A DNA stretch of 34,340 nucleotides, taken from assembly GCA_018699935.1 (NCBI GenBank), contig JABISF010000028.1:1-34340 (forward strand), given 5' to 3'. This stretch comes from Flavobacteriaceae bacterium. GTDB lineage: Bacteria; Bacteroidota; Bacteroidia; Flavobacteriales; Flavobacteriaceae. The notes under the pieces are model-generated. The model was not told the DNA's origin and did no database searches. It saw only the letters and a program-made list of their open reading frames with translations. Positions 10,042 through 34,340 of this stretch are shown here, in pieces (position 1 is the stretch's first letter; every line of letters begins with the position of its first letter). The position numbers and the translations under genes are program-made.

Positions 10042-12546
10042 ATGAAAAACGTTCTTTCCACAATTCTTATTCTTTTCCTATTTTTATCCTGCCAAAGCCC
10101 AAATTCAGATCGTATTCCCGTTGAGTTCCAAATCCAAACTTTCGATGTCGCCAACAGCCGTATGGAAGTCGTTTTTTCAATTACCAATCCCACTCAAACA
10201 GTTTGGGAAGGTGGAGCGTGGTCTTTACATTGGAACTCCATTTACGGAGTGGTGGATTCCGAAAGTTTACCCCAAGGCATCCAATTCACCTATGTGGACG
10301 GTCAACATTACCAATATCTTGAATTTGGCGCGGATTTCTCGCTCCCACCCGATGAAACGCTCACACTCCCTGTTTCCATCAAAGGCATCGTAAATCGTTT
10401 GGTGATGGGTCCCGGTGGTTTTTTTGTTCACAATCATAAAACCCAAAAAAATATTGATTTAAAAAGCACTATTGTCTGGGAACAAGCCTTGGGTCTTGAG
10501 GGATTGAAAATCCCCTCGGCGGAAGTTCGTTTTCTACGTTACGAAGGAATGGAACGCTTGCCTAAAGAAGCTTTGCAGTGGGTCATCCCCACGCCTCAAA
10601 AACAAGATTTTAGGGGTGCTTTTCGGGTTCCAACGGATTTAAATATCGATTGGAGTGCATTTGCTATGGAGGAAGAATTTATGCAACAACGGCTGCAAGA
10701 AGCTTTAACTATAAAAATAACTGCCAATCCGCAGGTGCCTTTCAATCTGATCGTGAGCAAAAACGATGAATTGGCAGCGGAAGGGTATCATTTAAATATC
10801 CTTGAAGATCAAATTCACATAGAAGCCGCACAGGAAATCGGGGTATTTTACGCATTTGAGTCTTTACATCAAATTTTATGGATGGCACAAAACGAAGCGG
10901 GCAAATGGCCTTTACTACACATTGAAGATCAGCCTCGATTTCAAAATCGGGGATTCATGACCGATATTGCGCGGAATTTCTATCCAAAAGAAAAGATTTT
11001 CCAAATCCTCGACTATATGGCGCTTTATAAATTGAATCGTTTTGATTTAAAATTGACCGATGACGATGGTTGGCGTATAGAAATTCCGGGGCTTCCGGAA
11101 CTTACGGAAGTTGGGGGACACAGAGGATATACCACAGATGAAAGGGATCGATTGATTCCCATGTACAGCTCCGGTTCAGGCGATCAAAAAAATCAAGGTT
11201 CGGGCTTTTTGAGTACGCAAGATTTTGCGGACATCCTCCGATACGCCAAAAAACGCTATATCGAAGTCATTCCTCAAATCAGTTTTCCTTCCCATGCCCG
11301 AGCAGCCATAGTTGCGATGAAAGCGCGCTATGAAAACTATAAAGAACAAGGCGATTATAATGCCGCCGTTGAATACCTTTTGCATGACCCCGAGGACAGT
11401 AGCGAATATTTATCAGCACAACTGTACAGCGACAATGTGGTTTGTATTTGTGATCCTAGTGCCTACCGTTTTTATGAAAAAGTGATTCAAGAGATTTTTC
11501 AAATCTACCAAACAGCCGAAGTCCCCATGAAAGTCTTTAATATTGGTGCCGATGAATTGCCCTATGGGCCATGGCAAAAAGCCCCAAAGTGCGAGGCGTA
11601 CATCAAAGAAAATCCAGCTATTGAAGGCTATAGCGATTTATACAATTTTAATTTAAGACTACTCAATAAAATGATAAGTGAGGTGGGCGCAAAAATGGTG
11701 GGCTGGGAAGATGCGCTATTGGTGCACAGCGAGAATGAGCAATCAGAGATTGGGATCAACCCCGCTTTAACCGATTTGGATTTTACACCCTATGTTTGGA
11801 ACAACAGTTGGGGAGGGGGTCGTGAAGACATGATTTACCGTCTTTGTAACCAAGGCTTTCCTGCCATTATGAGTAATTCCTCTGCTTTTTATTTCGATAT
11901 GGTGGACGATCGGGACATGGAAAATGTTGGAATGAGTTGGTCCGGTTATGTCAGTTATAGAGACAGTTGGGGTACCGAACCACTCAACGTTTTTGCCAAC
12001 AAAGTCACTTTGGAGGCACAAGGAATTCGTGCGGAAGAGGTCGCAACCAAAGAAATGCTTCAGCCCGATTCTGTTAAAAATTTCTTGGGAATTCAGTCGC
12101 AACTTTGGACGGAAACCGCCACCAATGAATCCCAATTTGATGAAATGTTGATGCCCAACCTTATCATTTTCGCCGAACGGGCTTGGGCGAAAAAAGAAGC
12201 CTGGTTGGAGCTTCCCACCGCAGCAGCGCAAAAACCTTTACTCCTACAAAGTTGGAATCGATTCACCAATACTTTAGGACAACGACAACTCCCTTTTATC
12301 CAGCACGTATACGGAGGTCTCGCCTTTGAACTTCCCAAACCCGGCGGACAGATTGAGAAGGGCATGCTAAATGTTCGACAACAATTTCCCGGACAAACCC
12401 TTCGCTATAGTCTGGATGGCAGCAAACCCACTCCTTCTTCTCCAGAATTTGACCAACCCATTCCCGTAGATCCGGCAAATTCAAAAATTGGACTACGTAG
12501 TTTTGACGTCCGTGGCAGAGGGGGGAAAACAATATTTATTGATTAA
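10042..12546 (+). CDS. Glycoside hydrolase family 20 beta-N-acetylhexosaminidase (lipoprotein)
   Basis: An 834-residue chitobiase-like enzyme that removes terminal beta-linked GlcNAc/GalNAc by substrate-assisted catalysis. A lipoprotein signal ends at C17 (FLFLSC), so it is likely anchored to an envelope membrane. Domain order: an N-terminal CHB_HEX-like beta domain (about 25-150, with TNPTQTVWEGGAWSLHW-like sequence), a GH20b alpha/beta domain (about 190-295, ending GVFYAFESLHQIL), the catalytic TIM barrel from RGFMTDIARNFYPKEKI (R303, D308) with the D504-E505 pair in FNIGADELP, and a C-terminal chitobiase-type beta domain (LRYSLDGSKPTPSSPEF). The motif reads GADE rather than the common GGDE. 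It is followed 12 bases later by a NagX-like gene, which fits amino-sugar salvage from chitin, peptidoglycan or glycans. Confidence 0.93.
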   Translation: MKNVLSTILILFLFLSCQSPNSDRIPVEFQIQTFDVANSRMEVVFSITNPTQTVWEGGAWSLHWNSIYGVVDSESLPQGIQFTYVDGQHYQYLEFGADFSLPPDETLTLPVSIKGIVNRLVMGPGGFFVHNHKTQKNIDLKSTIVWEQALGLEGLKIPSAEVRFLRYEGMERLPKEALQWVIPTPQKQDFRGAFRVPTDLNIDWSAFAMEEEFMQQRLQEALTIKITANPQVPFNLIVSKNDELAAEGYHLNILEDQIHIEAAQEIGVFYAFESLHQILWMAQNEAGKWPLLHIEDQPRFQNRGFMTDIARNFYPKEKIFQILDYMALYKLNRFDLKLTDDDGWRIEIPGLPELTEVGGHRGYTTDERDRLIPMYSSGSGDQKNQGSGFLSTQDFADILRYAKKRYIEVIPQISFPSHARAAIVAMKARYENYKEQGDYNAAVEYLLHDPEDSSEYLSAQLYSDNVVCICDPSAYRFYEKVIQEIFQIYQTAEVPMKVFNIGADELPYGPWQKAPKCEAYIKENPAIEGYSDLYNFNLRLLNKMISEVGAKMVGWEDALLVHSENEQSEIGINPALTDLDFTPYVWNNSWGGGREDMIYRLCNQGFPAIMSNSSAFYFDMVDDRDMENVGMSWSGYVSYRDSWGTEPLNVFANKVTLEAQGIRAEEVATKEMLQPDSVKNFLGIQSQLWTETATNESQFDEMLMPNLIIFAERAWAKKEAWLELPTAAAQKPLLLQSWNRFTNTLGQRQLPFIQHVYGGLAFELPKPGGQIEKGMLNVRQQFPGQTLRYSLDGSKPTPSSPEFDQPIPVDPANSKIGLRSFDVRGRGGKTIFID

Positions 12547-15615: not shown

Positions 15616-16839
15616 ATGAAAGAATCGGTATTGAAATCCATAGCGCAAAAAGTAGGAACCCCTACCTATGTATATGATGCTTCCAAAATTGAAGCCCAAT
15701 TTCAACGGCTTCAAAAGGCCTTTCAAGGCGTGGAACGACTTCGCGTGAATTATGCTTGCAAAGCCTTGTCCAATCTTTCCATTTTACGTTTGATGAAAAA
15801 AATGGGAGCAGGTTTGGACACTGTCTCGATACAGGAAGTCCAATTGGGCATCAAAGCCGGATTCGAACCTTCGGATATCATTTTTACGCCCAATGGCGTT
15901 TCTTTGGAAGAAATTGAAGAAACGGCAAAACTGGGGGTTCAAATCAATATTGACAATCTTTCCATCCTTGAACAATTTGGCACCAAATACCCCCATACCC
16001 CCGTTTGCATTCGAATCAATCCGCATGTGATGGCGGGTGGAAACAGCAATATTTCAGTGGGTCATATCGATTCAAAATTTGGGATTTCGATTCATCAAAT
16101 GCCCCATGTATTGCGTATCGTTGAAAACACCAATATGCGAATCAACGGGGTTCATATGCACACCGGCAGCGATATTTTAGACATCGAAGTCTTTTTATAC
16201 GCCGCGGAAATCCTTTTTGATACTGCACTTCAATTTAAAGATTTAGAATTTCTCGATTTTGGAAGCGGCTTTAAGGTTCCTTATCGACCCGGAGATATTG
16301 AAACCAATATTGAGGAATTGGGAGAAAAACTCAGCGAGCGCTTCCATCGGTTTTGCAAAACCTATGGTCGGGATTTGGAATTGGCCTTTGAACCGGGTAA
16401 ATTCTTAGTGAGTGAAGCCGGTTATTTTTTAGCCAAGGTGAATGCCGTCAAACAAACGACCTCCACCGTCTTCGCCCAAATTGATTCTGGCTTTAATCAT
16501 TTGATACGTCCGATGCTTTATGGATCGCATCATGAAATAAAAAACATCTCCAATCCCAAGGGTAAAGAGCGTTTTTATACGGTTGTGGGCTATATCTGTG
16601 AAACCGACACCTTTGGGAGCAATCGCAAAATTGCCGAAATTGTGGAGGGAGATGTTTTGGTCTTTCACAATGCCGGAGCCTATTGCTTTACCATGGCGAG
16701 CAATTACAATTCACGCTTCCGTCCCGCTGAAGTACTGTGGTACAACAATGAAGCGCATATCATTCGCAAAAGAGAAACTTTTGAAGATTTGGTACACAAT
16801 CAAGTCTTAATTGATTTTAAAGAAAAAGTAACGGTCTAG
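15616..16839 (+). CDS. lysA: Diaminopimelate decarboxylase
   Basis: A 407-residue PLP enzyme of the alanine-racemase-like fold III group. It converts meso-diaminopimelate to L-lysine, the last step of lysine synthesis. The PLP lysine is K49 in NYACKALSN. Other family motifs are visible: HMHTGSDI, FLDFGSGFKVPY (phosphate loop), AFEPGKFLVSEAGY, the cross-subunit CETDTF loop, and NAGAYCFTMASNYNSR near the C-terminus. The last motif and the Cys-Glu pair favour LysA over carboxynorspermidine or ornithine decarboxylases. Its stop codon overlaps the stop of the convergent gene within the palindrome CTAG (16836-16839). Confidence 0.95.
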   Translation: MKESVLKSIAQKVGTPTYVYDASKIEAQFQRLQKAFQGVERLRVNYACKALSNLSILRLMKKMGAGLDTVSIQEVQLGIKAGFEPSDIIFTPNGVSLEEIEETAKLGVQINIDNLSILEQFGTKYPHTPVCIRINPHVMAGGNSNISVGHIDSKFGISIHQMPHVLRIVENTNMRINGVHMHTGSDILDIEVFLYAAEILFDTALQFKDLEFLDFGSGFKVPYRPGDIETNIEELGEKLSERFHRFCKTYGRDLELAFEPGKFLVSEAGYFLAKVNAVKQTTSTVFAQIDSGFNHLIRPMLYGSHHEIKNISNPKGKERFYTVVGYICETDTFGSNRKIAEIVEGDVLVFHNAGAYCFTMASNYNSRFRPAEVLWYNNEAHIIRKRETFEDLVHNQVLIDFKEKVTV

Positions 16840-18698: not shown

Positions 18699-20036
18699 TT
18701 ATACAAATTTAGTTTTTCCTGGGGTTGGGATGTCATAATTTCCATCGGCATCGGGCAGGGTCGGTGGTATACTGTCCCAAGTCATGGTTTCCGGCATCAG
18801 GTGTAAATCTGAGTTTAACGCCTGCTCAAAAGTGATTTGTTGTCCGCTGTAGGTTGCCATTCTTCCCAAGATGGCTGTAAGTGTACTTTTTGCACCATTT
18901 TCGGCATCGGCAATAACTCCTCCACTGCGAATGGACGCAAACAGTCGGTCGTGCTCCACTTGATAGGGATTGGGGTCTTCTCCCCATTTTTTGTCGTATT
19001 TATATTTGAGATTTCCTTCCAAGTCGGTGATTTCTCCTTTGCCAATAGTTATGCTGCCCAAGCTTCCTTGAAAGGTTTCGTCTACCCGACTCATGGTTTT
19101 TGGAATGTGTCGACATTGGCTGGCAATTACTGCCCCACTGGCATAAGTAAACTCGACAAAATGGTGATCAAAAATTTCACCATGATCTTTTCCGTTACGC
19201 ACTTGACGCCCACCCATTCCTTGCGCAGAAATTGGATAGTCCCCGACAAACCAGTTGGCAACATCGATGTTGTGAATGTGCTGCTCGAGGATATGATCTC
19301 CGCACAACCAGTTGAAATAGTACCAATTACGCATTTGGTATTCCAGTTCAGATTGTCCCGCTTCCCGCTTGCGCACCCAAACTCCAGAGCTGTTCCAATA
19401 TACTTGACCACTTCGGATTTTACCGATAGCACCAGCATCAATTTGTTTTTTAAGATCAAGATAGCGAGACTCATAGTGCCTTTGTAAGCCCACCACCACA
19501 TTTAATTTTTTGGCTTTGGCGATTTTGGCGGTTTCCAACACCTTACGCACACCTACGGGATCGGTGGCTACCGGTTTTTCCATAAAAACGTGTTTGTCGT
19601 TGGCGATGGCGTATTCAAAATGATAGGGACGAAAGCCTGGAGGGGTGGTTAGGATGACGACATCCGCCAAATCAATGGCTTTTTTGTAGGCATCAAAACC
19701 TGCAAAACGATTTTTTTCCTTTACATCTATTTTCTTTTCGCTGCCAAAATGTTCTTGAATGCTTTTTAAACTCTCTTCGATACGATCGGCAAAGGCGTCT
19801 GCCATGGCGACCAACTCAACGTTTTCATCGGCCGTAAGGGCTTGTACGGCTGCTCCGGAACCTCTTCCACCGCAACCCACTAGGGCGATTTTTAATTTTT
19901 GATTTCCATAAACATGTGCCATGGCATCTACACCCAACGGCAGGGTCATCATGGCACCTGTGGCCAATGCTGTTTTTTGAACAAAAGAACGTCTTGAATG
20001 TCCCATGTTCCCGATTGATTTGTTTTTAGTTTTCAT
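18699..20036 (-). CDS. Gfo/Idh/MocA family oxidoreductase with Tat-like leader
   Basis: A 445-residue NAD(P)-dependent oxidoreductase. The N-terminus carries a twin-arginine-like leader (SRRSFVQK, 14-21, then a hydrophobic stretch), as in secreted members of Bacteroidota and Planctomycetes. The Rossmann motif is ALVGCGGRGSG (51-61), followed by the catalytic-region EKP (153-155, HVFMEKPVATDP) and a GDHILEQHIHNIDVANW helix (247-263 region) holding the likely substrate histidines. Members oxidise or reduce sugar hydroxyls, for example at C3. It sits between the FGE-like gene (14 bases away) and the TIM-barrel gene (one base away), in one operon. The pairing with a sugar isomerase suggests a keto-sugar route, which is inference. 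Confidence 0.9.
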   Translation of the reverse strand: MKTKNKSIGNMGHSRRSFVQKTALATGAMMTLPLGVDAMAHVYGNQKLKIALVGCGGRGSGAAVQALTADENVELVAMADAFADRIEESLKSIQEHFGSEKKIDVKEKNRFAGFDAYKKAIDLADVVILTTPPGFRPYHFEYAIANDKHVFMEKPVATDPVGVRKVLETAKIAKAKKLNVVVGLQRHYESRYLDLKKQIDAGAIGKIRSGQVYWNSSGVWVRKREAGQSELEYQMRNWYYFNWLCGDHILEQHIHNIDVANWFVGDYPISAQGMGGRQVRNGKDHGEIFDHHFVEFTYASGAVIASQCRHIPKTMSRVDETFQGSLGSITIGKGEITDLEGNLKYKYDKKWGEDPNPYQVEHDRLFASIRSGGVIADAENGAKSTLTAILGRMATYSGQQITFEQALNSDLHLMPETMTWDSIPPTLPDADGNYDIPTPGKTKFV

Positions 20037-21015: not shown

Positions 21016-21042
21016 AACGCTATTTAAACATTCTTAAAAGAC

Positions 21043-21098
21043 TAAATGTATAATTTATCTACAAACAAAAAAAATACATCTTAGCCATAAATGTATAA
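21043..21098. repeat. 11-bp direct repeat in the divergent intergenic region
   Basis: TAAATGTATAA occurs at 21043-21053 and again at 21088-21098, in the 216-base gap between two divergent genes. It could be an operator pair or chance in AT-rich DNA. No clear promoter was seen in this gap; ATAATTTG (21200-21207) and a minus-strand TACATTTA are imperfect -7-like boxes. Confidence 0.3.
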
Positions 21099-21231
21099 GA
21101 AAAAACTGGATTAGGTTTTAATGCAGAATTTTAGCTTAATGTTCCTTAAACGTTCGATCACAAAAAAATTGAATTTGGTTGATGTCGTTTTAAAAACAAA
21201 TAATTTGTAAATTCAACAAAAGAAAAATTAA

Positions 21232-23345
21232 ATGCCTCAAATTCTTAAATTCTTTTACTTACTGTCATTTTCAAGTTCGTTTTTTGTTTTTCAATTATCC
21301 TGCTCCTCCCACAACGCCTTTTCGGAGAATCAATTGGAAAAAGAATCGAGTCCATATTTACTTCAACATGCCAAAAACCCAGTACATTGGCAGCCCTGGA
21401 AAAAGGATGCCTATCAAGAGTTTAATCATGAAAAAAAACTGGTTATTGTCAGCATTGGCTATTCCAGTTGTCATTGGTGCCACGTCATGGAAGAGGAAAC
21501 TTTTGAGGATGCCCGAGTGGCGGATTTTATGAATAAAAATTTTATTAATATTAAAGTAGACCGAGAAGAAAATCCTGAGGTTGACAACATCTATATGACC
21601 GCCACTCAAATGATGACGGGCAGAGGTGGCTGGCCCCTGAATGTGATCTGCCTCCCTGATGGACGACCGGTCTACGGGGGGACCTATCACACCAAAGAAC
21701 AATGGATGGAAATTCTAAAAAAAGTGAATGAAATTTACAGTACCGATGAAAGTAAATTGATGACTATAGCCCGTGATGTAGCAAATGGAATTCAAGAGAT
21801 CAATACTTTTGAAGTTCCACAAAAGACGAGCCTCCTAAAGCCTGAAATATTTGAAAATGAAATGCAGCTGTGGGGGAAACAATGGGATGAGACTTATGGA
21901 GGCGAAAAGCAAAATCAGAAATTTATTACACCGGTAAAGTACAATTACATTCAACAATTTAAAACACTAAAAAAAGATACAGCAATCCAAAAATATTTTG
22001 AACACAGCCTGAACACGATTGCGCAAAGTGGAGTATACGATCCCATTGATGGAGGCTTTTTTCGCTATGCAACCGATTCGTTTTGGGAAGTGCCGCATTT
22101 TGAAAAAATGCTTTATGACAATGCACAAATCATTGGAATGTATGCGAACGCATTTAAGCAATCCAAAAATCCTGTTTATAAAGATCGTGTTTATCAAAGC
22201 TTTGCCTTCCTTCAGCAGCGAATGGCAAATGAAAATGGAGGTTATTATTCCGCCATTGACGCAGACAACAGTGCGGGTGAAGGCAGATTTTATCTTTTTA
22301 CCAAGGAAACACTGCAGCAAATTGCAGAAGAGGACCTTGAAATCTTTCTAAAATCTTTCCAAATCAATCTTGAAAAACCCCTAGACAATCACTTTTACAA
22401 TTTAAGAGCTCGTAAGATTGACACTGATTTTTTAAAAGAAAATAATAGCTCAAAAAAGGAATTTGAAAAAAATACAATTTATGGAGGAGCAGGATTAAAA
22501 AAATAGTCGGAAAAAGGGAATTTCCGCTTGTTGACTCAAAAATAATCACCTCCTGGAACGCTCTTGTGGTTGTGGGATTCACCCAAGCCTATGAGGCCTT
22601 CAATGATCCGGAATTTTTAATGAACGCCTTGGACACATATGCGTTTTTAAAAAACAACTGTTCCTACAAAAATCGCCTAGTTCATATTTTTAATAAGGAA
22701 ACCAAAAAAAAGGAGGGATTTTTAGAGGATTATGCATATATGATACAGGCTGCACTTCAATTGTACAAAAACACAGGTGACGAAAAATTTCTAAACGATG
22801 CTATAAGTTTCACCCAAAGTGTTCAAAAATATTTTAAAGATGACTCCTCCCCTTTTTTCACCTATACCGAAGCTCCTACTTTATTGACTAAAATTGTGAC
22901 CCTAGACGACAACGTGCTTCCTTCTGCTAATGCAATCATGGCTGAAAACCTGTGGGCATTGGGTCAATTGACCCCGCAAACAAATTATTACAATCAGGCT
23001 TTGACGATGATGCAAGGAATTCTTCCCTTTTTTCATCAAGGATATAGCAGTGACTATACCCAATGGGCACAATTGATGCTCAAAGAAGCTTATCCATATT
23101 TTGAAGTTGTTATTATTGGAAAAGAAGCGAAAGCACTTAGCGCAGCATTTCAAAAACAATACCTCCCAAACCTTTTAGTACAAATCAGTAGCCGTTCAAG
23201 TAACTTACCCCTTTTAAAAGATCGTTTTTTTGAAGACGAAACCTATATTTATGTTTGTCAAAACAAAGTTTGTTTACGTCCCGTAACCACAGTCCAGGAA
23301 GCTTTGGAGCTCCTCAAACCAACAAATGAAATTTTATTTTATTAA
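21232..23345 (+). pseudogene. YyaL/DUF255 thioredoxin-domain protein interrupted by a -1 frameshift
   Basis: Two consecutive frames, 21232-22506 (424 residues) and its continuation to 23345, together encode one YyaL/spermatogenesis-associated-protein-20-like protein of about 704 residues, the normal family size. The first part has a lipoprotein-like leader (FQLSC, C24), the DUF255 N-terminal thioredoxin-fold domain with SSPYLLQHAKNPVHW, C80-H-W-C83 and GGWPLNV, and the start of the (alpha/alpha)6 barrel (GGFFRYATDSFWEVPHFEKM). The second part resumes at KIVGKREFPLVDSKIITSWN, a conserved family block, and continues the barrel. The break is at the A7 run 22497-22503, followed at once by TAG; one extra A, or a -1 slip on A_AAA_AAA, restores the frame. 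Function of the family is poorly known. Confidence 0.8.
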
Positions 23346-23378
23346 GGTTTGTGAAAGAATTATTTGTGGCTATCCCAA

Positions 23379-23476
23379 CTTGAAGCAAGAATTAAAAAGA
23401 CAAAATGTATTACAGACCCATCAGTCGTAATGAGATCAACGAGAATCAATTACTGGAACAGAATCCCGGTTATTAA
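23379..23476 (+). pseudogene. Remnant of the 3' end of a second susD gene
   Basis: The stretch encodes DKMYYRPISRNEINEN then QLLEQNPGY and TAA, closely matching the last 25 residues of the intact SusD downstream (20 of 25 identical by hand count; 63 of 78 bases over 23399-23476). Weaker similarity continues back to about 23379 with one missing base, and the codon aligned to Trp is TAA (23393-23395). Most codon differences are synonymous, so the copy evolved as a working gene before it was truncated. Nothing upstream of 23379 resembles susD. It is followed by a hairpin also homologous to that of the intact gene. Confidence 0.85.
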
Positions 23477-23501
23477 TTATTTTTTAAACATATTTTAATT
23501 G

Positions 23502-23536
23502 ACATATCCTCCTTTGTTGGAGGATATGTTTTTTTT
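23502..23536 (+). terminator. Intrinsic terminator of the susD remnant
   Basis: Perfect 11-bp stem ACATATCCTCC / GGAGGATATGT with a TTTGTT loop, running into eight T (23529-23536). It is homologous in sequence to the hairpin after the intact susD and now probably stops transcription from the YyaL gene. Confidence 0.88.
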
Positions 23537-23706: not shown

Positions 23707-26700
23707 ATGAAACAAAAAACGAAGTTGAATTTTGCTCAGCAATTGGTTCTTTCCATCGCTCTTTTTGTAGGAGGACTGACTTTTGCACAGCAAAATGTTT
23801 CTGGTGTTGTATCGGATGAATCCGGTCCACTACCCGGTGTAAGTATTGTTGAAAAAGGTACTTCAAATGGAACCGTTTCCAATTTTGATGGTGAATTCTC
23901 CATTACTGTAGCCGATGAGAATGCTGTCCTAGTATTTTCTTACCTTGGATTTCTCACCCAAGAAGCCACTGCTAATGCAGACTCCATTAACATTACTATG
24001 GAATCCGGCTCTGACGAGTTAGACGAGATTGTTGTTACAGGTTATGGAACACAAAGAAAAGCTACAGTAACCGGTGCGGTCACAGCCATCAAAGGAGAAA
24101 GTATTGTCAAATCTCCTGCGGTTGACCTAACCAACTCGCTTGCAGGGCGTTTACCCGGTATCACTGTCCGTCAAGGATCGGGAGAACCTGGTTATGACGG
24201 AGCTTCCATCTCCATTCGTGGGATCAACACGCTAGGAAACTCTAGTCCTTTGGTGGTTATAGACGGAATTCCTGACCGTGATGGTGGGCTTGGACGTTTA
24301 AACCCTCAAGACATTGAGAGCATCTCTGTATTGAAAGATGCTTCCTCTGCCATCTACGGGGCACGTGCAGCAAACGGGGTGATCCTGATTACCACAAAAA
24401 GAGGAACTACCGGAGAGCCAACGCTTGAATACAGCTTCAATGCGGGCTATTCTACTCCAACCGTTTTCCCTCAAATGTCAAATGCCTATGAGTATGCCAA
24501 CATCATGAATGAATTACCCATTTACAACTCTATTCCTGCCAACGAATGGGGAAGTGCTTGGTCAAGTATTCAGTCTTCTGGGAATTACAATTCTCCCACT
24601 GCTGGCGTGGCTTCATTAAATGCAAATTACAGCCCCGAAGCCGTTCAAGGCTATCAAACGGGTAATGACCCTTGGAAATATCCCGATACCGACTGGTATG
24701 GTGAAACTTTCAAAAACTGGGCACCGCAGCAACGACACAATTTACAGTTGTCTGGGGGTACTGAAAAAGTAAAGTATTTCACTTCTATGGGTTATGTCTA
24801 CCAAGATGCGATCTATGAAAACTCTGCAACTTATTACAATCAGTATAACTTGAGAATGAATCTGGATGCAGAAGTGAATGACTACATCAAAATGAATTTT
24901 GGTTTGATGACTCGTAGAGAGGATCGCAACTCCCCAACCGTTGGAGCGGGTGCCATCTTTAGAATGTTACAACGAGGACGCCCAACCGAACCCGCGATAT
25001 GGCCTACAGGTGAGGCTGGACCCGATATCGAAAACGGTCAAAACCCCGTTGTCGTAACTACGGGAGCTACAGGTTACCAACAAAATCCTAAAGATTATAT
25101 TCAAGTTAATTCTGGAATCAATATTACCAATCCTTGGATTGAAGGGTTAGAATTAATCATCAACGGTTCTATTGACGTCAACAGAGAAACCAACAAACGT
25201 TGGGAAACACCCTGGAAATTGTACAGTTGGAATGGAGTGGACAAAAGTTCTGCTGGACTTACAGGATCCATTCGTTCTCCTTTTACCGATGCAAGACTTC
25301 AAGAAAGTGCTAACTCTGTTTTGAATTCAACCTTTACCGGTCAGTTGAAATATGACTTCACCATCGGTGAAAATCATGACTTCGGTTTATTTGTTGGAGC
25401 AACACGGGAGCAGTTTACGGGATCAAATTTCTTTGCGTTTAGAAGAAACTACATCTCCCCTGCCATCGACCAATTGTTTGCCGGAGGTACTGCCGATCAA
25501 AACACGGGAGGTTCAGCTTACAACCGTTCTCGTTTGGGGTACTACGGTCGTTTACAATACAACTATAATGACACTTATTTGGTGGAATTATTGTTCCGTC
25601 GTGATGGTTCCTACATCTTCCCTACCGAAGGGCGTTATGGAAACTTCCCCGGTATCCTTGCCGGTTGGAACATCGGAAACGAATCTTGGTTTAATGCGGA
25701 ACAAGTACAATACTTAAAACTTAGGGCTTCTTACGGAGAACTTGGAAATGATCAAGTATTCTACAACGGCAGCCTGCAAGAATATGCGTTCTTATCCACT
25801 TTTGGATTTGGCGAATATCCTATCGACAGTCAAGTAGTGAAAACATTGTATGAAACCGTTCTTCCTAACCCCAGCTTTACTTGGGAGGTGGCAAGAAACA
25901 CCAACATTGGTTTGGATGCTAAAGTATTCAACCGTTTCAATTTGACCTTGGAATGGTTTAACAACCAACGGGATCGTATCCTAATCCAACAGCAAGGAAG
26001 TACGCCTGCATCTTCAGGGATCAGTCGTTTGTTACCTCCAACCAACTTTGGAAAAATGAACAACCGCGGTTATGAATTCTCTTTGAGCTATGACGGGGGT
26101 GATACGAACTATATCAATCCGGATGCCTTGCGGTATACTTTAGGAGTAAATGGAGGATATTCTAAAAACCAAGTGGTATTTATTGACGAAGTATCTGGAG
26201 CACCAGAATATCAACTTCAAGAAGGCAAGCCTTTGGGCGCTTATTTGTTGTATGAGGCCGATGGTGTTTTCTTCGATCAAAACGATATCGCAGCCAATAC
26301 TATTGACTACAGTGGTGTTACCTCGCAAATCAAACCCGGTGATCTTAAATTAAAAGATTACAACGGAGATGGTAAAATTGATGCGGATGACCAAGTACGT
26401 CAAGACAAAAGTTTTACACCTCGATTCCAATACGGATTCACTTTAGATATGAATTACAAAAATTTCGATCTATCTGTGCTTTTCCAGGGATCAACAGGTG
26501 CATTAGCATTATTTGATGGAGAGTTTGGAGACATTGGGAACTTCTACAAATGGCAATACGACAACCGTTGGAGTATTGACAACCCCAGTAGTGAGCACCC
26601 AAGATTGGCTTCAAGAGGAGACACCTATTATACAGGTGGTGGATTTGGGAACAATACCTATCGCTATTTCAGCACGGATTACTTCCGTTTGAAAAACTTA

Positions 26701-26883
26701 GAGATTGGATATACCGTTCCTGAAAGTGCTATAAACAAAGGGTTTATTTCAAATCTTCGTTTATATGCAAGTGGATTAAATCTTTTGACAATTTCAAAAT
26801 TTGATGTTTGGGATCCGGAAGTTGCGGGTCGTGGATATCCCATGTCAAAAGTTTTAAATGTAGGATTAAGAGCAACCTTTTAG
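23707..26883 (+). CDS. SusC/RagA-family TonB-linked outer-membrane transporter
   Basis: A 1058-residue outer-membrane protein. Signal peptide about 1-27 (LTFAQ); carboxypeptidase-regulatory-like domain 29-100 (VSGVVSDESGPLPGVSIVEK); TonB-box-like DEIVVTGYG (106-114); plug domain about 115-235 with SLAGRLPGITV, SIRGINTL and the SusC signature SAIYGARAANGVILITTKRG; then a 22-strand-type barrel ending in phenylalanine (LRATF), the usual BAM recognition end. A calcium-loop-like DYNGDGKIDADDQ occurs late in the barrel, as in many SusC proteins. With SusD it imports an oligomer using TonB energy. Substrate is not evident because no glycoside hydrolase, lyase, sulfatase or protease lies beside it in the window. 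Confidence 0.97.
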   Translation: MKQKTKLNFAQQLVLSIALFVGGLTFAQQNVSGVVSDESGPLPGVSIVEKGTSNGTVSNFDGEFSITVADENAVLVFSYLGFLTQEATANADSINITMESGSDELDEIVVTGYGTQRKATVTGAVTAIKGESIVKSPAVDLTNSLAGRLPGITVRQGSGEPGYDGASISIRGINTLGNSSPLVVIDGIPDRDGGLGRLNPQDIESISVLKDASSAIYGARAANGVILITTKRGTTGEPTLEYSFNAGYSTPTVFPQMSNAYEYANIMNELPIYNSIPANEWGSAWSSIQSSGNYNSPTAGVASLNANYSPEAVQGYQTGNDPWKYPDTDWYGETFKNWAPQQRHNLQLSGGTEKVKYFTSMGYVYQDAIYENSATYYNQYNLRMNLDAEVNDYIKMNFGLMTRREDRNSPTVGAGAIFRMLQRGRPTEPAIWPTGEAGPDIENGQNPVVVTTGATGYQQNPKDYIQVNSGINITNPWIEGLELIINGSIDVNRETNKRWETPWKLYSWNGVDKSSAGLTGSIRSPFTDARLQESANSVLNSTFTGQLKYDFTIGENHDFGLFVGATREQFTGSNFFAFRRNYISPAIDQLFAGGTADQNTGGSAYNRSRLGYYGRLQYNYNDTYLVELLFRRDGSYIFPTEGRYGNFPGILAGWNIGNESWFNAEQVQYLKLRASYGELGNDQVFYNGSLQEYAFLSTFGFGEYPIDSQVVKTLYETVLPNPSFTWEVARNTNIGLDAKVFNRFNLTLEWFNNQRDRILIQQQGSTPASSGISRLLPPTNFGKMNNRGYEFSLSYDGGDTNYINPDALRYTLGVNGGYSKNQVVFIDEVSGAPEYQLQEGKPLGAYLLYEADGVFFDQNDIAANTIDYSGVTSQIKPGDLKLKDYNGDGKIDADDQVRQDKSFTPRFQYGFTLDMNYKNFDLSVLFQGSTGALALFDGEFGDIGNFYKWQYDNRWSIDNPSSEHPRLASRGDTYYTGGGFGNNTYRYFSTDYFRLKNLEIGYTVPESAINKGFISNLRLYASGLNLLTISKFDVWDPEVAGRGYPMSKVLNVGLRATF

Positions 26884-26901
26884 ACAATTAAATTTAATCA
26901 A

Positions 26902-28767
26902 ATGAAATATTTCAATAACTTAAAAACAGTAATGGCAACAAGTGCGCTGGCAATGGCAACATTGTTTACGGCTTGTAATGATGATTTTTTGGAGACGACG
27001 CCACTGGATAAAATTTCCAGTTCTGCGACGTGGAGTGATGGAACGCTGGCTGAAGCCTTTGTTTTTAGCGTCTATTCCTATTTGGGATACGGCGGATTTG
27101 AAGAGCAAATGCTCGCCGTATATACCGATGAAGCGATGTTTACCCATGCCGGGCGAAACATCAACACCTTCAACGAGGGTTCTGAAACCCCTTCTAACTT
27201 AGCTTGGACCAGTGGTACCTACGAATGGGGAACTATGTACTCTGCAATTCGCCAAGCCAATGTTGCACTTCAGAGTATTCCTGAAGCAACCTTTGAAGAC
27301 CAGGCTTTAAAAGACCAGTTGATGGGAGAAGCGCACTTTCTAAGAGCGTATTACTACCAACAACTTGCACGTTTTTACGGAGGTGTTCCTTTAATCGACA
27401 GTCCGTATACTTTAGAAGACGATCTCGCTATTGCGCGCAACACTTATGAAGAAACCATCAACTTCATCATTGCCGATTTAGACAAGGCCGCCAATCTTTT
27501 AAATGGCAAAAACATGGCTGCGGGGAGAGCCAACCGTTTGGCTGCACTTGCACTAAAATCAAGAGTGCTCACCTATGCTGCGAGTGATTTACATGAATCC
27601 TCTAAAGCTCCAGCTGGATTTGGAACTAGCTTACACGCATACAGTGGTGGACAACAAGCCCGCTGGACAGCAGCGCAGCAAGCTGCCAAAGCCGTTTTGG
27701 ACCTTACAACGGGTTACAAAACAGATTTGAGTGCTCCTGTCTCTCATTCGGATGGTATTGCAAACGCAATCTCCATTGCAATGGGTGGAAAAAGTGCAGT
27801 TGCCGATGCCGGTGCAGGTTCGGAGTTAATCTTCCAACGTACTTTGTCTTCAGATTATAAACCCGAAGACAACTGGCCTCTAGGGGGTACACACTTTGGA
27901 GTAAACAATGGCCCGAATGGCTATCACAACTGGAGTGGGAATCCTCCAATTCAGCAATTGGTCGACGATTATGAACTTATGGATGGTTCTTCTTTTGATT
28001 GGAATAATGCTACACACAAAGCAGATCCTTATGCCAATCGCGATCCACGTATGTATGCTACGGTATTATACGATGGTTCCAAGTGGAAACCCAGACCCTC
28101 TGATGTTGTCTCTATCGATCCGAATGATGAAATTCAAACAGGATACTATGCTGACGGAAGTGGTGGATTTATTAATGGGGTAGATACTAGAGAATCTCCC
28201 ATTGAAAACTGGAACGGTAGTAGAACACACTACAACACCCGAAAATTCATCGATCCAGATCCTTCAATTGTTGAAAATCTAACCAGTCACCAATTAATCC
28301 CTTGGCCTTTTATTCGCTATGCTGAAGTCGTATTAAACTACGTTGAAGCGAGTATCGAATTAGGGCAAGAAGGCGAAGCACAAGCGTGGTTGAACAAAAT
28401 TCGTTTTAGAGTAGGAATGCCTGCTGTAACCGATTCGGGAGAGGCTTTAAAAGCAAGATACCGCAACGAAAGAAGAGTTGAATTGGCGTTCGAAGAGCAC
28501 CGTTATCACGATGCAAGAAGATGGATCATTGCTCCAGAAACGTTAGGTCGTGGAGTACAAGTAGTTAATGTAACGGCTACGTTAAAATCGGGTAAAGCTC
28601 CTTTGGTGCCTTATCGACATGACAAAGCGGTTTATGATTATGCGTATGAGGTTCAAAATAATACTGAAGTTGAAACACGTACTTGGAAAGACAAAATGTA
28701 TTACCGACCCATCAGCCGCGATGAGATGAATAAGAATGATTTGCTCGTACAGAATCCGGGCTACTAA
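26902..28767 (+). CDS. SusD/RagB-family surface nutrient-binding lipoprotein
   Basis: A 621-residue lipoprotein, the lid and substrate-binding partner of the SusC transporter. The signal ends at C25 (LFTAC) followed by NDDFLE, which fits the acidic surface-export signal known in Bacteroidota lipoproteins. Family features: ETTPLDKISS near the N-terminus, TPR-rich helices with EAHFLRAYYYQQLARFYGGVPLID-type sequence (residues about 148-170), LNKIRFRVGMP, and the C-terminal NERRVELAFEEHRYHDARRW block. The last residues KDKMYYRPISRDEMNKN then LLVQNPGY are duplicated in the remnant upstream. It starts 18 bases after SusC and is followed by a terminator. Confidence 0.96.
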   Translation: MKYFNNLKTVMATSALAMATLFTACNDDFLETTPLDKISSSATWSDGTLAEAFVFSVYSYLGYGGFEEQMLAVYTDEAMFTHAGRNINTFNEGSETPSNLAWTSGTYEWGTMYSAIRQANVALQSIPEATFEDQALKDQLMGEAHFLRAYYYQQLARFYGGVPLIDSPYTLEDDLAIARNTYEETINFIIADLDKAANLLNGKNMAAGRANRLAALALKSRVLTYAASDLHESSKAPAGFGTSLHAYSGGQQARWTAAQQAAKAVLDLTTGYKTDLSAPVSHSDGIANAISIAMGGKSAVADAGAGSELIFQRTLSSDYKPEDNWPLGGTHFGVNNGPNGYHNWSGNPPIQQLVDDYELMDGSSFDWNNATHKADPYANRDPRMYATVLYDGSKWKPRPSDVVSIDPNDEIQTGYYADGSGGFINGVDTRESPIENWNGSRTHYNTRKFIDPDPSIVENLTSHQLIPWPFIRYAEVVLNYVEASIELGQEGEAQAWLNKIRFRVGMPAVTDSGEALKARYRNERRVELAFEEHRYHDARRWIIAPETLGRGVQVVNVTATLKSGKAPLVPYRHDKAVYDYAYEVQNNTEVETRTWKDKMYYRPISRDEMNKNDLLVQNPGY

Positions 28768-28790
28768 TTCATTTTTTTTGTATATTTAAT

Positions 28791-28826
28791 AAAGCATATC
28801 CTCTTTCATTAGAGGATATGTTTTTT
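28791..28826 (+). terminator. Intrinsic terminator after susD
   Basis: A 10-bp stem CATATCCTCT / AGAGGATATG (28795-28804, 28811-28820) with loop TTCATT and six T after it; flanking AAA can also pair with the T-run. Same design and largely the same bases as the hairpin at 23502-23536. It separates SusC/D from the downstream VCBS-haloperoxidase genes, which may therefore depend on read-through or a promoter I could not identify in 28827-28868. Confidence 0.85.
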
Positions 28827-28868
28827 ATGACAATTTACAGTTACTGTCTCATCTCTTGATTCTATGTA

Positions 28869-31800
28869 ATGAAACATCCTCGAAGCACCCTTTTCAGTAC
28901 CAGCGCACTCCTCCTGCTCTTTTGTTTTTGCAGCCCTCAATCCGAAAAAAGCGAAACACTTTTTGTTAAACATCTGGCTCAAAAATCCGGAATTACCTTT
29001 CAAAACGATTTGACCGAAGGTCCCAACACCAATGTGTTGATGTACGAATATTTCTATAATGGTGGGGGTGTTGCCCTAGCCGATTTTAACGGCGACCAAC
29101 GCTTGGACATCTACCTTACCTCCAACATGCAAACCAATAAAATGTACCTCAACCAAGGAGATTTCCAATTTCAAGACATTACTGCCCTTTCCAAAACGGA
29201 AGGACGTTCAGGACCTTGGAAAACTGGAGTGACCGCCGTTGACATCAATGGAGACAGCCGCATGGACCTCTATGTTTGTTATTCTGGTGCGGTGAAAGAA
29301 AACAGTCGACGCAATCAGCTCTTTCTCAATATGGGCAATGACAATAACGGCATTCCCACCTTTACAGAAGTGGCAAAACTCTACGGACTCGACAGTCCAG
29401 CCTATAGCAATCAGGGCTATTTTTTTGATTATGACAAAGACGGTGATTTGGACATGTTGCTTCTTAATCACAATCCTAAATCCTTACCCGTTTTGAGTGA
29501 AGCCAAAACCAAAGTACTGTTGAAAGAGGACAGTCCTTCAAGTGGTTTGCGGCTCTATGAACAGCGAGATCGCTATTTTTATGACATTACTCCCAACACC
29601 GCCATCAATGGTTCCAGTTTGTCCTATGGTTTGGGAATCGCCCTTTCCGATTTCAACAACGATGGTTGGACCGATTTTTATGTCTGTAACGATTACACCA
29701 TTCCCGATTATTTGTATATCAATGATCAACAAGGAGGGTTTCGGGACGAACTCCAAAAAAGCATGCCCCACACCAGTCATTTTTCAATGGGAAATGATGC
29801 GGGAGATATTAACAATGACGGTTTAATCGACTTGATGACCTTGGACATGCTTCCGCAAAGCAACGAGCGCCAAAAAATCTTACGCGCCCCCGATAATTAC
29901 AACCTTTTTGATCTGAATTTAAAAAGTGGATTTCACTATCAGTATATGCGCAATATGCTCCACCTGAACAATGGCAACGGCACTTTTAGTGAAATTGGAC
30001 AACTCTCTGGCGTAGCCAACACCGATTGGAGTTGGGCTGCCCTTTTTGCCGATTACGACAATGACGGTTGGAGTGATTTATTGGTTACCAACGGTTATAA
30101 AAGAGATTATACCAACAGGGATTTTCTAAGCTATATGGAAGATTTTATTGAAAATAAATCCTCCAATCTTAAAAAAGAAGATGTTCTAGAAATCATCAAT
30201 AATATGCCCGCCTCCAATATCTCCAATTACAGCTATGCCAATCAAAAAGGAAAAGGTTTTTCCGATGTCACCCAATCATGGGGATTGTATGAAGCGGTAA
30301 ATAGTAATGGCGCGGCTTATGGAGACCTCGACAATGACGGGGATTTGGACCTCATCATCAACAACATCAACAGTCCTTTGGGAATTTATGAAAATACCGC
30401 CAACCAACGTGGCAATTATCTACAAGTAGCGCTTGCAGGAACTACGCCCAACACCCATGCCATTGGTGCCAAAATAAGTCTTTATGCCAACGACCAACAG
30501 CAAGTCAAGGAACAATACCCCGCACGAGGATATCTCTCCACAGTAAGTCCTATAGTGCATTTTGGCTTAGGAACAATTTCTCAAATTGACTCTCTAATTG
30601 TTCAATGGCCTGACGGACGAATTTGCAAACAATACGATCTTAAATCGCAACAGCGTATTCGTTTGTCGCAGGAAGCTGCCGAAGCGGTTGAACCCATCAC
30701 TCCAAAAGAGGTAGAACCGCTATTTGCTTCCGTTGCTCCAAAAATCACTTTCCAGCATCAAGTCAAAAATGTTTTAGATTTTGATCGTCAAAAGCTCTTG
30801 CATTTTCAACCTTCTTTTTCTGGTCCAACGATGATAAAAGCCGATTTGAATCAAGATGGTCGAGAAGACATCATCATCGGGGGTGGAGCAAAACAAGCAA
30901 CCGAAATATGGTGGCAAGCACCCTCGGGGAGCTTTAAAAAGTCTAACGACCCTATTTTTAATCAACATGCCGCTGCGGTGGTGAGTGATATTGCTATCTT
31001 GGACGCTAATCTGGATGGAAAACCCGATGTTTACATCGCTCATGGAGGCTATCATCAATTCCAATCCGACAGCCCCGAACTTCGAGATGTTATCTATCTC
31101 AATCAAGGTAATAGGACTTTTAAAATTGCCTCCGGCTTTAAAGCAGACCCTCATGTTACTTCCAAAGTTGCCGTATACGATTTGAATCAGGATGGTGCCC
31201 CCGATGTGTTTTTGGGTGGAGGGATCATTCCCGGAAGTTATCCCAATCATTATCCCAATCAAATACTATTGAACGATGGAAAAGGCAACTTTACTCCAGA
31301 TTCCACCCAACAAATAGCAATCAACAAGACCCCTGGCATCGTTCGAGATGCCCTTTGGGAAGACCTCGATGGTGATGGTCAAAAAGATTTGATCCTCATC
31401 GGCGAATGGATGCCCATTCAAGTGTTTCTCAACCGAAACGGCCAACTTGAATCTCAGGAGGATTATTTTAATTCCCCCTTAACACAAAACGGTTGGTGGA
31501 ATCGGATCCAATCCAGCGACCTCAACGGCGACGGAAAAACTGATTTTATCGTTGGCAATGAAGGCAGCAATACAGCCTATCAAGCTGCTTCCGAACAACC
31601 CGTACAATTGGATTTCGGTGATTTGGACAACAATGGAACCGTGGATCCTATACTTTCCTATTATATCGAAGGAGAATCCTATCCCATGGCCAGTAGGGAT
31701 GAATTGCTTGCGCAATGGGTCGCACTAAAAGCCAAGTACCCCTCCTATGCCTCCTTTTCCAAAGTCACCACTGCCCTGCTGCTGGAAAATCGGGAAGCTA

Positions 31801-32189
31801 CAGCTGAAATTCAACATTGGCAGGCAACACAACTCCAATCCATAGTGATATTGAGTAGCCCTGAGGGGTATTCTGTCAAAGCACTTCCGCGGGAGGCTCA
31901 GTTCAGTCCCATAACGGCTATTGCCGTGGAAGACCTCAATAAAGATGGCAACAAAGATCTTTTGCTCTTGGGAAATCGCTCCAATATGGCACTCAAACTG
32001 GGGCGTTATGATGCCAACTACGGTTGCACTCTTTTGGGAGATGGGAAAGGCAATTTTCAGTTACTCACTCCAAAAGCCTCTGGATTGCAACTGCAAGGGG
32101 ACATCAGTAATGTAATCACTATTGACAATACCTTTTTCTTCAGCACATGTAATGACTCCCTTGTCAATTATAAATTAAATACTCCATGA
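28869..32189 (+). CDS. FG-GAP/VCBS-repeat protein with ASPIC/UnbV domain (CRTAC1-like), secreted
   Basis: A 1106-residue exported protein (hydrophobic leader SALLLLFCFCSP, possibly a lipoprotein at C21). It carries 14 calcium-loop-type repeats of the form DxNxDGxxD, spread over the whole length (for example DFNNDGWTD, DLDNDGDLD, DLNGDGKTD), as expected for two beta-propellers of FG-GAP/VCBS blades. Between them, at about 515-597, lies an ASPIC/UnbV domain (IGAKISLY, YPARGYLSTVSP, VHFGLG, LIVQWPDG). Such proteins are calcium-rich secreted or surface proteins, often beside SusC/D genes in marine Bacteroidota; their biochemical role is not established. The stop overlaps the next start by four bases. 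Confidence 0.92.
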   Translation: MKHPRSTLFSTSALLLLFCFCSPQSEKSETLFVKHLAQKSGITFQNDLTEGPNTNVLMYEYFYNGGGVALADFNGDQRLDIYLTSNMQTNKMYLNQGDFQFQDITALSKTEGRSGPWKTGVTAVDINGDSRMDLYVCYSGAVKENSRRNQLFLNMGNDNNGIPTFTEVAKLYGLDSPAYSNQGYFFDYDKDGDLDMLLLNHNPKSLPVLSEAKTKVLLKEDSPSSGLRLYEQRDRYFYDITPNTAINGSSLSYGLGIALSDFNNDGWTDFYVCNDYTIPDYLYINDQQGGFRDELQKSMPHTSHFSMGNDAGDINNDGLIDLMTLDMLPQSNERQKILRAPDNYNLFDLNLKSGFHYQYMRNMLHLNNGNGTFSEIGQLSGVANTDWSWAALFADYDNDGWSDLLVTNGYKRDYTNRDFLSYMEDFIENKSSNLKKEDVLEIINNMPASNISNYSYANQKGKGFSDVTQSWGLYEAVNSNGAAYGDLDNDGDLDLIINNINSPLGIYENTANQRGNYLQVALAGTTPNTHAIGAKISLYANDQQQVKEQYPARGYLSTVSPIVHFGLGTISQIDSLIVQWPDGRICKQYDLKSQQRIRLSQEAAEAVEPITPKEVEPLFASVAPKITFQHQVKNVLDFDRQKLLHFQPSFSGPTMIKADLNQDGREDIIIGGGAKQATEIWWQAPSGSFKKSNDPIFNQHAAAVVSDIAILDANLDGKPDVYIAHGGYHQFQSDSPELRDVIYLNQGNRTFKIASGFKADPHVTSKVAVYDLNQDGAPDVFLGGGIIPGSYPNHYPNQILLNDGKGNFTPDSTQQIAINKTPGIVRDALWEDLDGDGQKDLILIGEWMPIQVFLNRNGQLESQEDYFNSPLTQNGWWNRIQSSDLNGDGKTDFIVGNEGSNTAYQAASEQPVQLDFGDLDNNGTVDPILSYYIEGESYPMASRDELLAQWVALKAKYPSYASFSKVTTALLLENREATAEIQHWQATQLQSIVILSSPEGYSVKALPREAQFSPITAIAVEDLNKDGNKDLLLLGNRSNMALKLGRYDANYGCTLLGDGKGNFQLLTPKASGLQLQGDISNVITIDNTFFFSTCNDSLVNYKLNTP

Positions 32190-33532
32190 ACTATTTTTGT
32201 GGTTTTGGTTTGATGAAACGATCGCTCCTACTTTTGGTTTTGGGAGTTGTACAATGTGACTCCCTCCCCGATGGGATACCCGATCATGAAGTTGCGGCAC
32301 AATGGGCAGATATGACGTTACACATTACCAAAGATACACCTGCCAACTCTCCCACTTTTGCTTCCCGTTGTTTGGGTTATATCGGACTTACCCAATACGA
32401 AGCTGTGGTGCATGGTTTTCCGGAATATCAATCCCTAGTGGGGCAACTCTCGGGATTGGAGGAGTTACCCTTACCCGAAGCCAATGCCCGTTATTCTTGG
32501 CCAATGGTTTTAAATCGTGCCGAAAGTGAAATCCTTGCGTCGATTTATATTCAAACCTCCGATCAAAACAAAAAGAAAATTGATTCTTTAGAAAAAAGAA
32601 TTTATGCGATACTAAAAAAATCAACAGATCAAGCCACAGCTGAGCGGTCCAATGCCTTCGGAACAGCACTGGCAAGAGCTATTTTCGAGTGGTCCACAAC
32701 CGACGGAGGACATCGGGGGTATTTAAATAATTTTGATACCGATTTTAAAAAAGAACCTTTTCCCGGGTCTTGGAAACCCCCGCTATTCGCACAATCTTTT
32801 AGCCATCATCCGCTTCATCCCTATTGGGGAGAAAATCGTCCTTTTGCTCCTCAAAACAAAAATCTCCCCCTCCCCGATTTCATTTCTTATGATCCTAAAG
32901 AAGGTAGTTCTTATTACGATCAATTTTTAAAGGTGTATGAAAAAGAACGGCAGTTGACGCAAGAAGAAAAAGAATTAGCCATTTGGTGGAGTGACGATCC
33001 GGATGTGACGTTTAGTCCCGGAGGGCATTTGTATTATTTAGCCAACGCCATGGTTCGAAAAAATCAACCCACTTTGATTCACAGTGCCCAGACTTTTGCC
33101 CGCGTGGGCATGGCAGTAGCCGATGCTTTTATCAACTGTTGGAAATGGAAATATCACTTTTTTTCAGAACGTCCCAACACCTTTATTCCACAATTTATCG
33201 ATCAGAAGTGGGAATCCTTTTGGCCTGACCCACCTTTTCCTGCTTTTCCCTCGGGACATGCCATACAAGCTGGAGCTGCTGCCACTGTCTTGATTTCGCT
33301 CTATGACAATAAAACGGCCATTATTGACAGTGCTCATGTAGGCAGAGAACGTGACCATGTGCGCAATACCGAATTTGTTGCGCAAAGCTTTGACTCGATT
33401 TGGCAAATTGCTCTTGAAACCGCAGACTCTCGGTTTTTTGGTGGTATACACACCCCCCAAGACAATCAAGTGGGTTTGGAACAAGGAAGCATCATCGCCA
33501 ATAATATCGTTATATTAGCATGGAAAAAATAG
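32186..33532 (+). CDS. Vanadium-dependent haloperoxidase / PAP2-superfamily lipoprotein
   Basis: A 448-residue exported protein with the three metal/oxyanion motifs of the vanadium haloperoxidase-PAP2 superfamily: K322-x6-R329-P330 (KYHFFSERP), P355-SGH358, and S415-R416-x5-H422-x3-D426 (SRFFGGIHTPQD). The order and the SRFFGGIH...DNQVGLEQG ending resemble bacterial haloperoxidase-like enzymes more than lipid phosphatases. It may oxidise halides with H2O2 or hydrolyse phosphoesters; sequence alone cannot decide. A lipoprotein signal ends at C24 (VVQC). ATG 32186 overlaps the upstream stop and has an A-rich leader; ATG 32213 (MKRSLLLLVL) would give a more compact signal peptide and is a real alternative. 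Confidence 0.88.
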   Translation: MNYFCGFGLMKRSLLLLVLGVVQCDSLPDGIPDHEVAAQWADMTLHITKDTPANSPTFASRCLGYIGLTQYEAVVHGFPEYQSLVGQLSGLEELPLPEANARYSWPMVLNRAESEILASIYIQTSDQNKKKIDSLEKRIYAILKKSTDQATAERSNAFGTALARAIFEWSTTDGGHRGYLNNFDTDFKKEPFPGSWKPPLFAQSFSHHPLHPYWGENRPFAPQNKNLPLPDFISYDPKEGSSYYDQFLKVYEKERQLTQEEKELAIWWSDDPDVTFSPGGHLYYLANAMVRKNQPTLIHSAQTFARVGMAVADAFINCWKWKYHFFSERPNTFIPQFIDQKWESFWPDPPFPAFPSGHAIQAGAAATVLISLYDNKTAIIDSAHVGRERDHVRNTEFVAQSFDSIWQIALETADSRFFGGIHTPQDNQVGLEQGSIIANNIVILAWKK

Positions 33533-34340
33533 GGAAATTGGTTACTAAAATTTTTAAAAACAACTTCCCCCTTACCTTCCTAATTGCATGGCTGCTTTCA
33601 TGCGGTGCGCTCCTTGCACAAGGGTTTACTGATATTTCAAAAGAAGCCGGATTGGAACACTATTTTGAAGTCTATGAGGGGATGTTTGGGGGGGGTGTTG
33701 CCGTCTTGGATTTCAATAATGACGGCTTTGAAGATTTGTATTTAACCGGGGGTATGCAACCCGATCAACTCCTGTTGAACCAAGGTGATGGTAGCTTTGA
33801 AGACCAACTTGAAAAAGCAGGGATGCTAAAGGTTTTGGACTTTGTCACCCAAGGCGTAGCTGCAGCTGACTTCAACCGTGATGGCTTTAAAGACCTTTTT
33901 ATAACCACCATTACCCTTAAAAATAAAAAGCAAAAAATTCCTCGTGCTCAGAATCTCATTTTCATCAATCAAGGCGATGGCACTTTTGTGGAGGAAAGCG
34001 TTGCTTTTGGGTTAGATCAAACGAGCTCTTTTAGTACGGGAGTTGCTGTGGGTGATGTCAATAGGGATGGATATCCAGATGTTTATGTGGGGAATTATTT
34101 TACCGACTATGATGGCGGTCTCAAAGAAATCAGCGATGCGACCATCGTCAATGCCGGAAAAACCGCCAAAGGCTATCTCTATATCAACCGTAAGGGGAAA
34201 AAATTGGTGGAATCTTATGAAGATTACGGACTCAATCACCGAGGCTTTAGTTTTGGAGGTGTATTCACAGATTTTGATAACGATCACGATATGGATTTGA
34301 TCGTTAATAACGATTTTGGATATAAAGCAAAACCGAGCTA
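33520..34340 (+). CDS. Second FG-GAP/VCBS-repeat (CRTAC1-like) secreted protein, 3' end outside window
   Basis: An open frame from ATG 33520 runs to the window edge without a stop (273 complete codons). It starts inside the last 13 bases of the haloperoxidase gene, so the two are co-transcribed. Signal peptide: NNFPLTFLIAWLLSCG then ALLAQ. The mature part begins FTDISKEAGLEHYF, the typical opening of CRTAC1-type proteins (compare VKHLAQKSGITF in the gene at 28869), and shows four calcium-loop repeats so far: DFNNDGFED, DFNRDGFKD, DVNRDGYPD and DFDNDHDMD. The C-terminal half, including any ASPIC/UnbV domain, is not in view. Confidence 0.88.
   Translation, partial: MEKIGKLVTKIFKNNFPLTFLIAWLLSCGALLAQGFTDISKEAGLEHYFEVYEGMFGGGVAVLDFNNDGFEDLYLTGGMQPDQLLLNQGDGSFEDQLEKAGMLKVLDFVTQGVAAADFNRDGFKDLFITTITLKNKKQKIPRAQNLIFINQGDGTFVEESVAFGLDQTSSFSTGVAVGDVNRDGYPDVYVGNYFTDYDGGLKEISDATIVNAGKTAKGYLYINRKGKKLVESYEDYGLNHRGFSFGGVFTDFDNDHDMDLIVNNDFGYKAKPS

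Follow-up and report, generated by a model that had tools for sequence, protein, structure and literature searches.

A susD tail with a terminator-like hairpin upstream of an intact SusC–SusD pair in a Flavobacteriaceae genome

Truncated gene relics, or pseudogene fragments, arise by duplication and deletion. The susD tail described here resembles such fragments in its partial homology to an intact neighbor, in lacking a start and a gene body, and in coding changes of the drift type. It differs from the usual ones in being very short and in having a terminator as its best-conserved part. As a fossil left by gene rearrangement it is ordinary and changes no general view, and its value lies in marking a rearrangement at a locus where two SusC/D types alternate among related flavobacteria and in offering a case of a terminator that has survived the loss of its gene.

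That Flavobacteriia exchange PULs with one another is supported in the accessible text of PMC6298971, which also describes a Muricauda PUL with two SusC/D-like pairs, and gene duplication and transfer are invoked for carrageenan loci in the accessible text of PMC5698469. Against this background of PUL gain, loss, and exchange in marine Flavobacteriia, a locus that alternates among type A, type B, and no SusC/D at all is as expected from horizontal transfer and duplication. Neither an orphan susD tail nor the present cassette is described in those portions of the two papers, and the literature searched yielded no published account of such a tail, which is no proof of its absence from print.

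The window is the whole contig analyzed (34,340 nucleotides, with the contig end at 34340) of a genome labeled G000, a draft assembly of 85 contigs that is 88% complete. It was compared with a genus set of 38 genomes, whose completeness of 54–98% means that an orphan tail could be missed in some, and with a wider Bacteroidota collection of 80 susD loci, many ending at contig edges. Type A denotes the SusD type of the intact G000 pair, and type B SusD is ~45% identical to it. The features are collected in Table 1.

Table 1. Features around the susD tail in the window
Feature	Position	Strand	Basis
YyaL (DUF255 thioredoxin domain), frameshifted, in two parts at 21232–22506 and 22566–23345; displaced neighbor	21232–23345	+	
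Rearrangement junction between YyaL and relic	23319–23376	+	YyaL C terminus against 8 relatives, by eye
Left edge of susD homology, out of frame through a one-base gap	23377–23398	+	local alignment; anchored score equaled by 3 of 5000 shuffles
susD relic, last 25 codons and stop; apparently dead coding sequence	23399–23476	+	63/78 bases and 20/25 residues identical
Hairpin resembling an intrinsic terminator, with T run, left from the lost susD	23501–23534	+	12-pair stem; -19.3 kcal/mol, z -7.65
SusC, intact	23707–26883	+	TIGR04056, 850 bits
SusD, intact; family from which the relic came	26902–28767	+	PF07980, PF14322
Terminator-like hairpin of intact susD, sister of the relic's	28795–28826	+	fold and pattern comparison
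Remainder of cassette: FG-GAP/UnbV_ASPIC protein, PAP2 protein, second FG-GAP protein (cut by contig end)	28869–34338	+	

The tail and its terminator

The coding part of the tail aligns with 28690–28767, the end of the intact susD, and the two share a final QNPGY-stop. The preliminary description of this DNA had given these identities, along with 14 changed codons of which nine are synonymous, and its counts are exact. Its proposal of a truncated susD 3′ end is supported, terminator included, and here the homology proves longer than was stated. It runs as an unbroken 158 bases through the coding end, the spacer, and the terminator, with 23377–23534 matching 28667–28826 at 78% identity over 161 columns (blastn, E 2.5e-27). 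This pair is the sole off-diagonal match at E 1e-3 when the window is compared with itself (blastn, word size 7, low-complexity filter on), and in the genome's own DNA the tail and the end of its own susD are the sole matches reported, the second at E 6.6e-28. The tail contains no complete reading frame, offering only an open frame of 26 codons, and one stop falls within the 30-residue match; its coding part looks dead.

The identity of the coding part is in itself unexceptional. When the intact susD is compared with that of G012 in 595 overlapping windows, 184 of them attain the level of 60 of 75 identical bases. The peptide likeness to other SusD proteins that the preliminary description had looked to is real, with up to 21 of 25 residues shared with four Bacteroidota loci outside the genus, while the genome's own susD shares 20 of 25. 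The coding match alone is not decisive, because the SusD C terminus is conserved across the Bacteroidota. As judged from these alignments, it is the untranslated part and the terminator that decide the case for a relic, rather than coding identity.

The stem of the relic hairpin, five of whose pairs are G–C, is followed by a T run, and its differences from the terminator of the intact susD are unevenly spread. The stem has two of 20 bases changed, which are both sides of one pair, with pairing kept; the T run has none of six changed, the loop two of six, and the spacer 12 of 29. Although the numbers are small, this pattern would suit a terminator kept as if still in use. The hairpin pattern CATATCCTC..GGATATG occurs in four of the 38 genus genomes at five places (twice in G000 and once each in G035, G012, and G002), every one of them either the tail itself or the downstream side of a type A susD; a reversed control pattern gave one match, in G028. 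A variant lies behind the susD of G024. In the wider collection, where 79 of the 80 susD loci have a 3′ flank of 100 bases or more, the hairpin lies within 200 bases of susD at two loci, both of this genus, and most other loci inspected by eye end in hairpins of different sequence. Rfam gave no matches at gathering scores. Since within the genus this hairpin is found only behind type A susD, the tail descends from such a gene, and comparison of the two copies identifies the stretch as the relic of a second type A susD 3′ end with its terminator.

An orphan tail occurs in G000 only among the 38 genus genomes, many of them incomplete. The preliminary description had held that a relative with the same short tail, and no second SusC/D in any related strain, would count against its reading; no such tail turned up in these relatives. 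With the last 100 SusD residues as query, 25 of the 38 match at E 0.01, and the tail is the sole match with an open frame shorter than 156 codons. A DNA search of 60 genomes (37 from the genus and 23 from the order) matched, besides G000, only G035, over its terminator. A family-wide DNA search, in which two candidates were scored per genome, matched 106 of 397 genomes at E 0.01, far above the E-value expectation. Among the matches listed, nearly all span 19–50 bases, and in G097, G345, G442, and G356 a stretch of 79–90 bases within the coding part is matched; a full-length match was confined to G000. A tail-specific 30-mer had no matches in viral contigs.

Changed gene order around the tail

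The left ~22 bases of the homology align only with a one-base gap, and without it 12 of 22 differ. Of 4858 positions in the window, only the susD locus reaches their anchored score. A match between 23346–23398 and susD further upstream was dropped, as 1254 of 2000 shuffles did as well. The preliminary description placed a breakpoint near 23379, after YyaL, and this is borne out with bounds at the last codons of YyaL (~23319, by eye) and at 23377. From ~23319 the last residues of YyaL diverge, by eye, from those of the eight relatives compared, and since they are unlike the relatives' ends, the junction probably trimmed the C-terminal end of YyaL.

YyaL itself is probably a pseudogene or the product of an assembly error. 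Its frameshift lies before 22506, amid several runs of A, and its branch length is 0.59 against 0.11–0.13 in its sisters, while the core genes of this genome have 0.22 against ~0.1. The long branch is in keeping with loss of function, though a single frameshift may also come from faulty assembly.

Most relatives share one gene order, namely a divergent FGE-sulfatase-like gene, SusC–SusD–FG-GAP/ASPIC–...–NHL–YyaL (the NHL gene being named from its Pfam repeats), and then MnmA. SusD (at E 1e-30) and YyaL are both matched in 15 other genus genomes. In 13 of these, YyaL follows SusD at a distance of 5–8 kb, sharing its strand and contig, and the remaining two, G001 and G008, have the genes on separate contigs. 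MnmA directly follows YyaL in eight of 12 relatives mapped gene by gene. In G000 the order is instead the frameshifted YyaL, the susD tail, and then SusC–SusD and its partners up to the contig end. The preliminary description had looked to relatives for a second SusC/D between YyaL and SusC; none of the 38 genus genomes has two SusD of this type, and the relatives show instead a switch of YyaL from one side of SusC/D to the other, which the window alone could not reveal. The relatives' MnmA and NHL genes have no match in the 88% complete G000 assembly. Likewise, 23320–23400 has no blastn match to the relatives' stretches holding MnmA, and traces of MnmA after YyaL were found neither by eye nor by blastn at E 0.05. 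Possible cassette remnants between the FGE-sulfatase gene and YyaL (21016–21231) were dropped, as they came to two matches at E 0.04, one 19 bases long and the other 33.

The SusC/D types vary at this locus. A type A SusC/D precedes YyaL in G012, and in G006 type A partner genes do so, with SusC/D past the contig edge. G035 has a type A set and no YyaL before MnmA, and G024 has the set in a different context. Type B SusC/D are found in G023, G033, G003, and G031, and in G007 no SusC/D lies between the FGE-sulfatase gene and YyaL. At the equivalent site beside the FGE-sulfatase gene, L056, L066, and L186 (from G023, G033, and G031) hold one type of SusC/D and L054 and L062 (from G012 and G035) the other.

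Between the same two genes, G007 (L058 and L059 joined) has a 114-codon piece at 19040–19384 whose relative in the type B sets is a small gene (cluster c9); a type B set may once have stood here and left this trace. In G030 the corresponding interval holds a susC stub with stops (L060, ~15955–16233), so that SusC/D loss has independently left a remnant at this locus there too. Typing of this stub was abandoned, with 44 of 60 residues identical to the SusC of G000 and to the type B SusC of G033 alike.

The distribution of SusC/D types beside the FGE-sulfatase gene conflicts with the core-gene tree. In the core tree (concatenated g00–g17), G000 groups with G007, G030, G023, and G031 (96/99, four of the eight rows being less than half filled), and in the YyaL tree it groups with G030, G023, and G007 (98/99, with G000 flagged as a long branch). 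The SusC, SusD, and g22 genes of G000, in turn, group with those of G012 and G035, and G033, which has type B, sits with G012 and G035 in the core tree. To judge from these trees, the type A and B sets are scattered over the core phylogeny as they would be under gain, loss, or exchange at the locus.

Substitutions and timing

The coding end of the tail differs from that of the intact susD at 15 bases. The preliminary description took the predominance of synonymous codons as a sign that the lost gene had evolved under selection before truncation, and this argument does not stand once the changes are polarized by the majority of four susD genes (G012, G035, G024, and G002). The tail branch then carries three synonymous and six replacement changes and the branch of the intact gene three and none, with three synonymous changes assignable to neither, so that all six replacement base changes fall on the tail. 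At neutral synonymous shares of 0.19–0.27, the pooled differences (9 of 15 synonymous) give p 0.0005–0.007, which suggests constraint, but the intact branch adds only synonymous changes. The tail branch alone (3 of 9) gives p 0.24–0.46, and with all three ambiguous changes added (6 of 12) p 0.015–0.08. Selection before truncation is thus neither established nor excluded, with p spanning 0.015 to 0.46 according to assignment and neutral share; the tail branch alone fits drift. An Asn at codon 11 and an Ile at codon 13 of the tail recur in G024 or outside the genus, and some of the changes counted to the tail may be old.

An unrooted six-row tree of the coding end and terminator joins the intact copy and the tail (99/98; 989 of 1000 bootstraps), with a branch length of 0.39 for the tail and 0 for the intact copy. 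Because the tree is unrooted, this split gives no date for the duplication. The intact copy shares 105 of 136 bases with the tail, 98 of 137 with G012, and 101 of 137 with G002. A dead copy should evolve no more slowly than a live one, so the closer match to the tail than to G012 would point to an origin after the G012 split, but column resampling kept the tail ahead of G012 in only 4385 of 5000 draws and ahead of G002 in only 3760 of 5000. Rooting with outgroups was given up as uninformative for the timing; over the 75 coding bases alone, just 124 of 1000 bootstraps joined the intact copy and the tail, and a Maribacter sequence was the tail's partner in the best tree.

Origin of the tail

The reading that we favor, with moderate confidence, is that this lineage gained a second copy of SusC–SusD by duplication, and that one of the two was later reduced to its tail and terminator. 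Duplication of the unit would have set a SusD end with its terminator directly before a SusC promoter, and a later rearrangement would have deleted all but the end of the first SusD along with the first SusC, bringing YyaL up against the tail. The remnant peptide would have no function and would be drifting, and the hairpin, a predicted terminator, would now stop transcripts from the frameshifted YyaL ahead of SusC. Duplication followed by deletion is preferred because it is the simplest route to that arrangement. In its favor are the homology running on through the terminator, the type A hairpin, the tree joining the two copies, the confinement of replacement changes to the tail, the nearly unchanged stem, and the susC stub of G030 and missing SusC/D of G007. 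The tandem SusC/D ancestor envisaged in the preliminary description is possible; the survey of relatives counts against it. None of the 38 genus genomes has two type A SusD, and no second same-strand susD match was seen at the 80 Bacteroidota loci, many of them cut by contig ends, although a distant same-strand susC match was found at two of the 80, and at L152 a divergent pair occupies the opposite strand. The position of YyaL upstream of SusC would also require a further event.

It is possible, though less probable, that an insertion took place and that the tail marks its left-hand boundary. A susD end, its terminator, and SusC–SusD with what follows would then have come from an unsampled relative and been placed between YyaL and MnmA, in a lineage without SusC/D between the FGE-sulfatase gene and YyaL. 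Several of the observations above suit such an insertion, among them the split placement of G000, by its core genes and YyaL near G007, G030, and G023 and by SusC, SusD, and g22 with G012 and G035. Its core-tree neighbors have no SusC/D here (G007), only the dead susC stub (G030), or type B (G023 and G031), and YyaL commonly leads directly into MnmA. An insertion would need a donor in which susD immediately precedes susC, an arrangement seen in no relative, and its right-hand junction lies beyond the assembled contig. Duplication and insertion alike require an array absent from the relatives searched.

A more doubtful suggestion concerns why the relic persists. It may have been kept for a reused terminator, which would end YyaL transcripts and insulate the SusC promoter, with the susD repeat serving as a homology patch for exchange or loss of SusC/D.

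The absence of a tandem pair from all relatives searched would also suit a case in which no second full SusC/D had ever existed and only ~160 bases of susD end and terminator had been copied upstream of SusC by template switching or repair. The homology stops just past the T run, in keeping with such a small copy, but at its left edge the similarity peters out in a shifted frame, as expected of decay, and the displaced YyaL points to a larger rearrangement, making this origin unlikely. Chance or convergent similarity or an assembly artifact, for which one might cite the widely conserved C-terminal peptide and the draft state of the assembly, is highly improbable, since the E value of the match, noncoding bases included, refutes chance and copies differing by more than 20% are not one sequence assembled twice.

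Two side observations concern the cassette itself. In G035 (L062), a 527-codon gene at 9928–11511 lies between the FGE-sulfatase gene and SusC and is without counterpart in the window. The set at 23707–34338 (SusC, SusD, FG-GAP/UnbV_ASPIC, PAP2, and FG-GAP) is widely kept in the Bacteroidota; among the 58 of the 80 loci with at least 7 kb downstream of susD, 48 have all three partner genes there.
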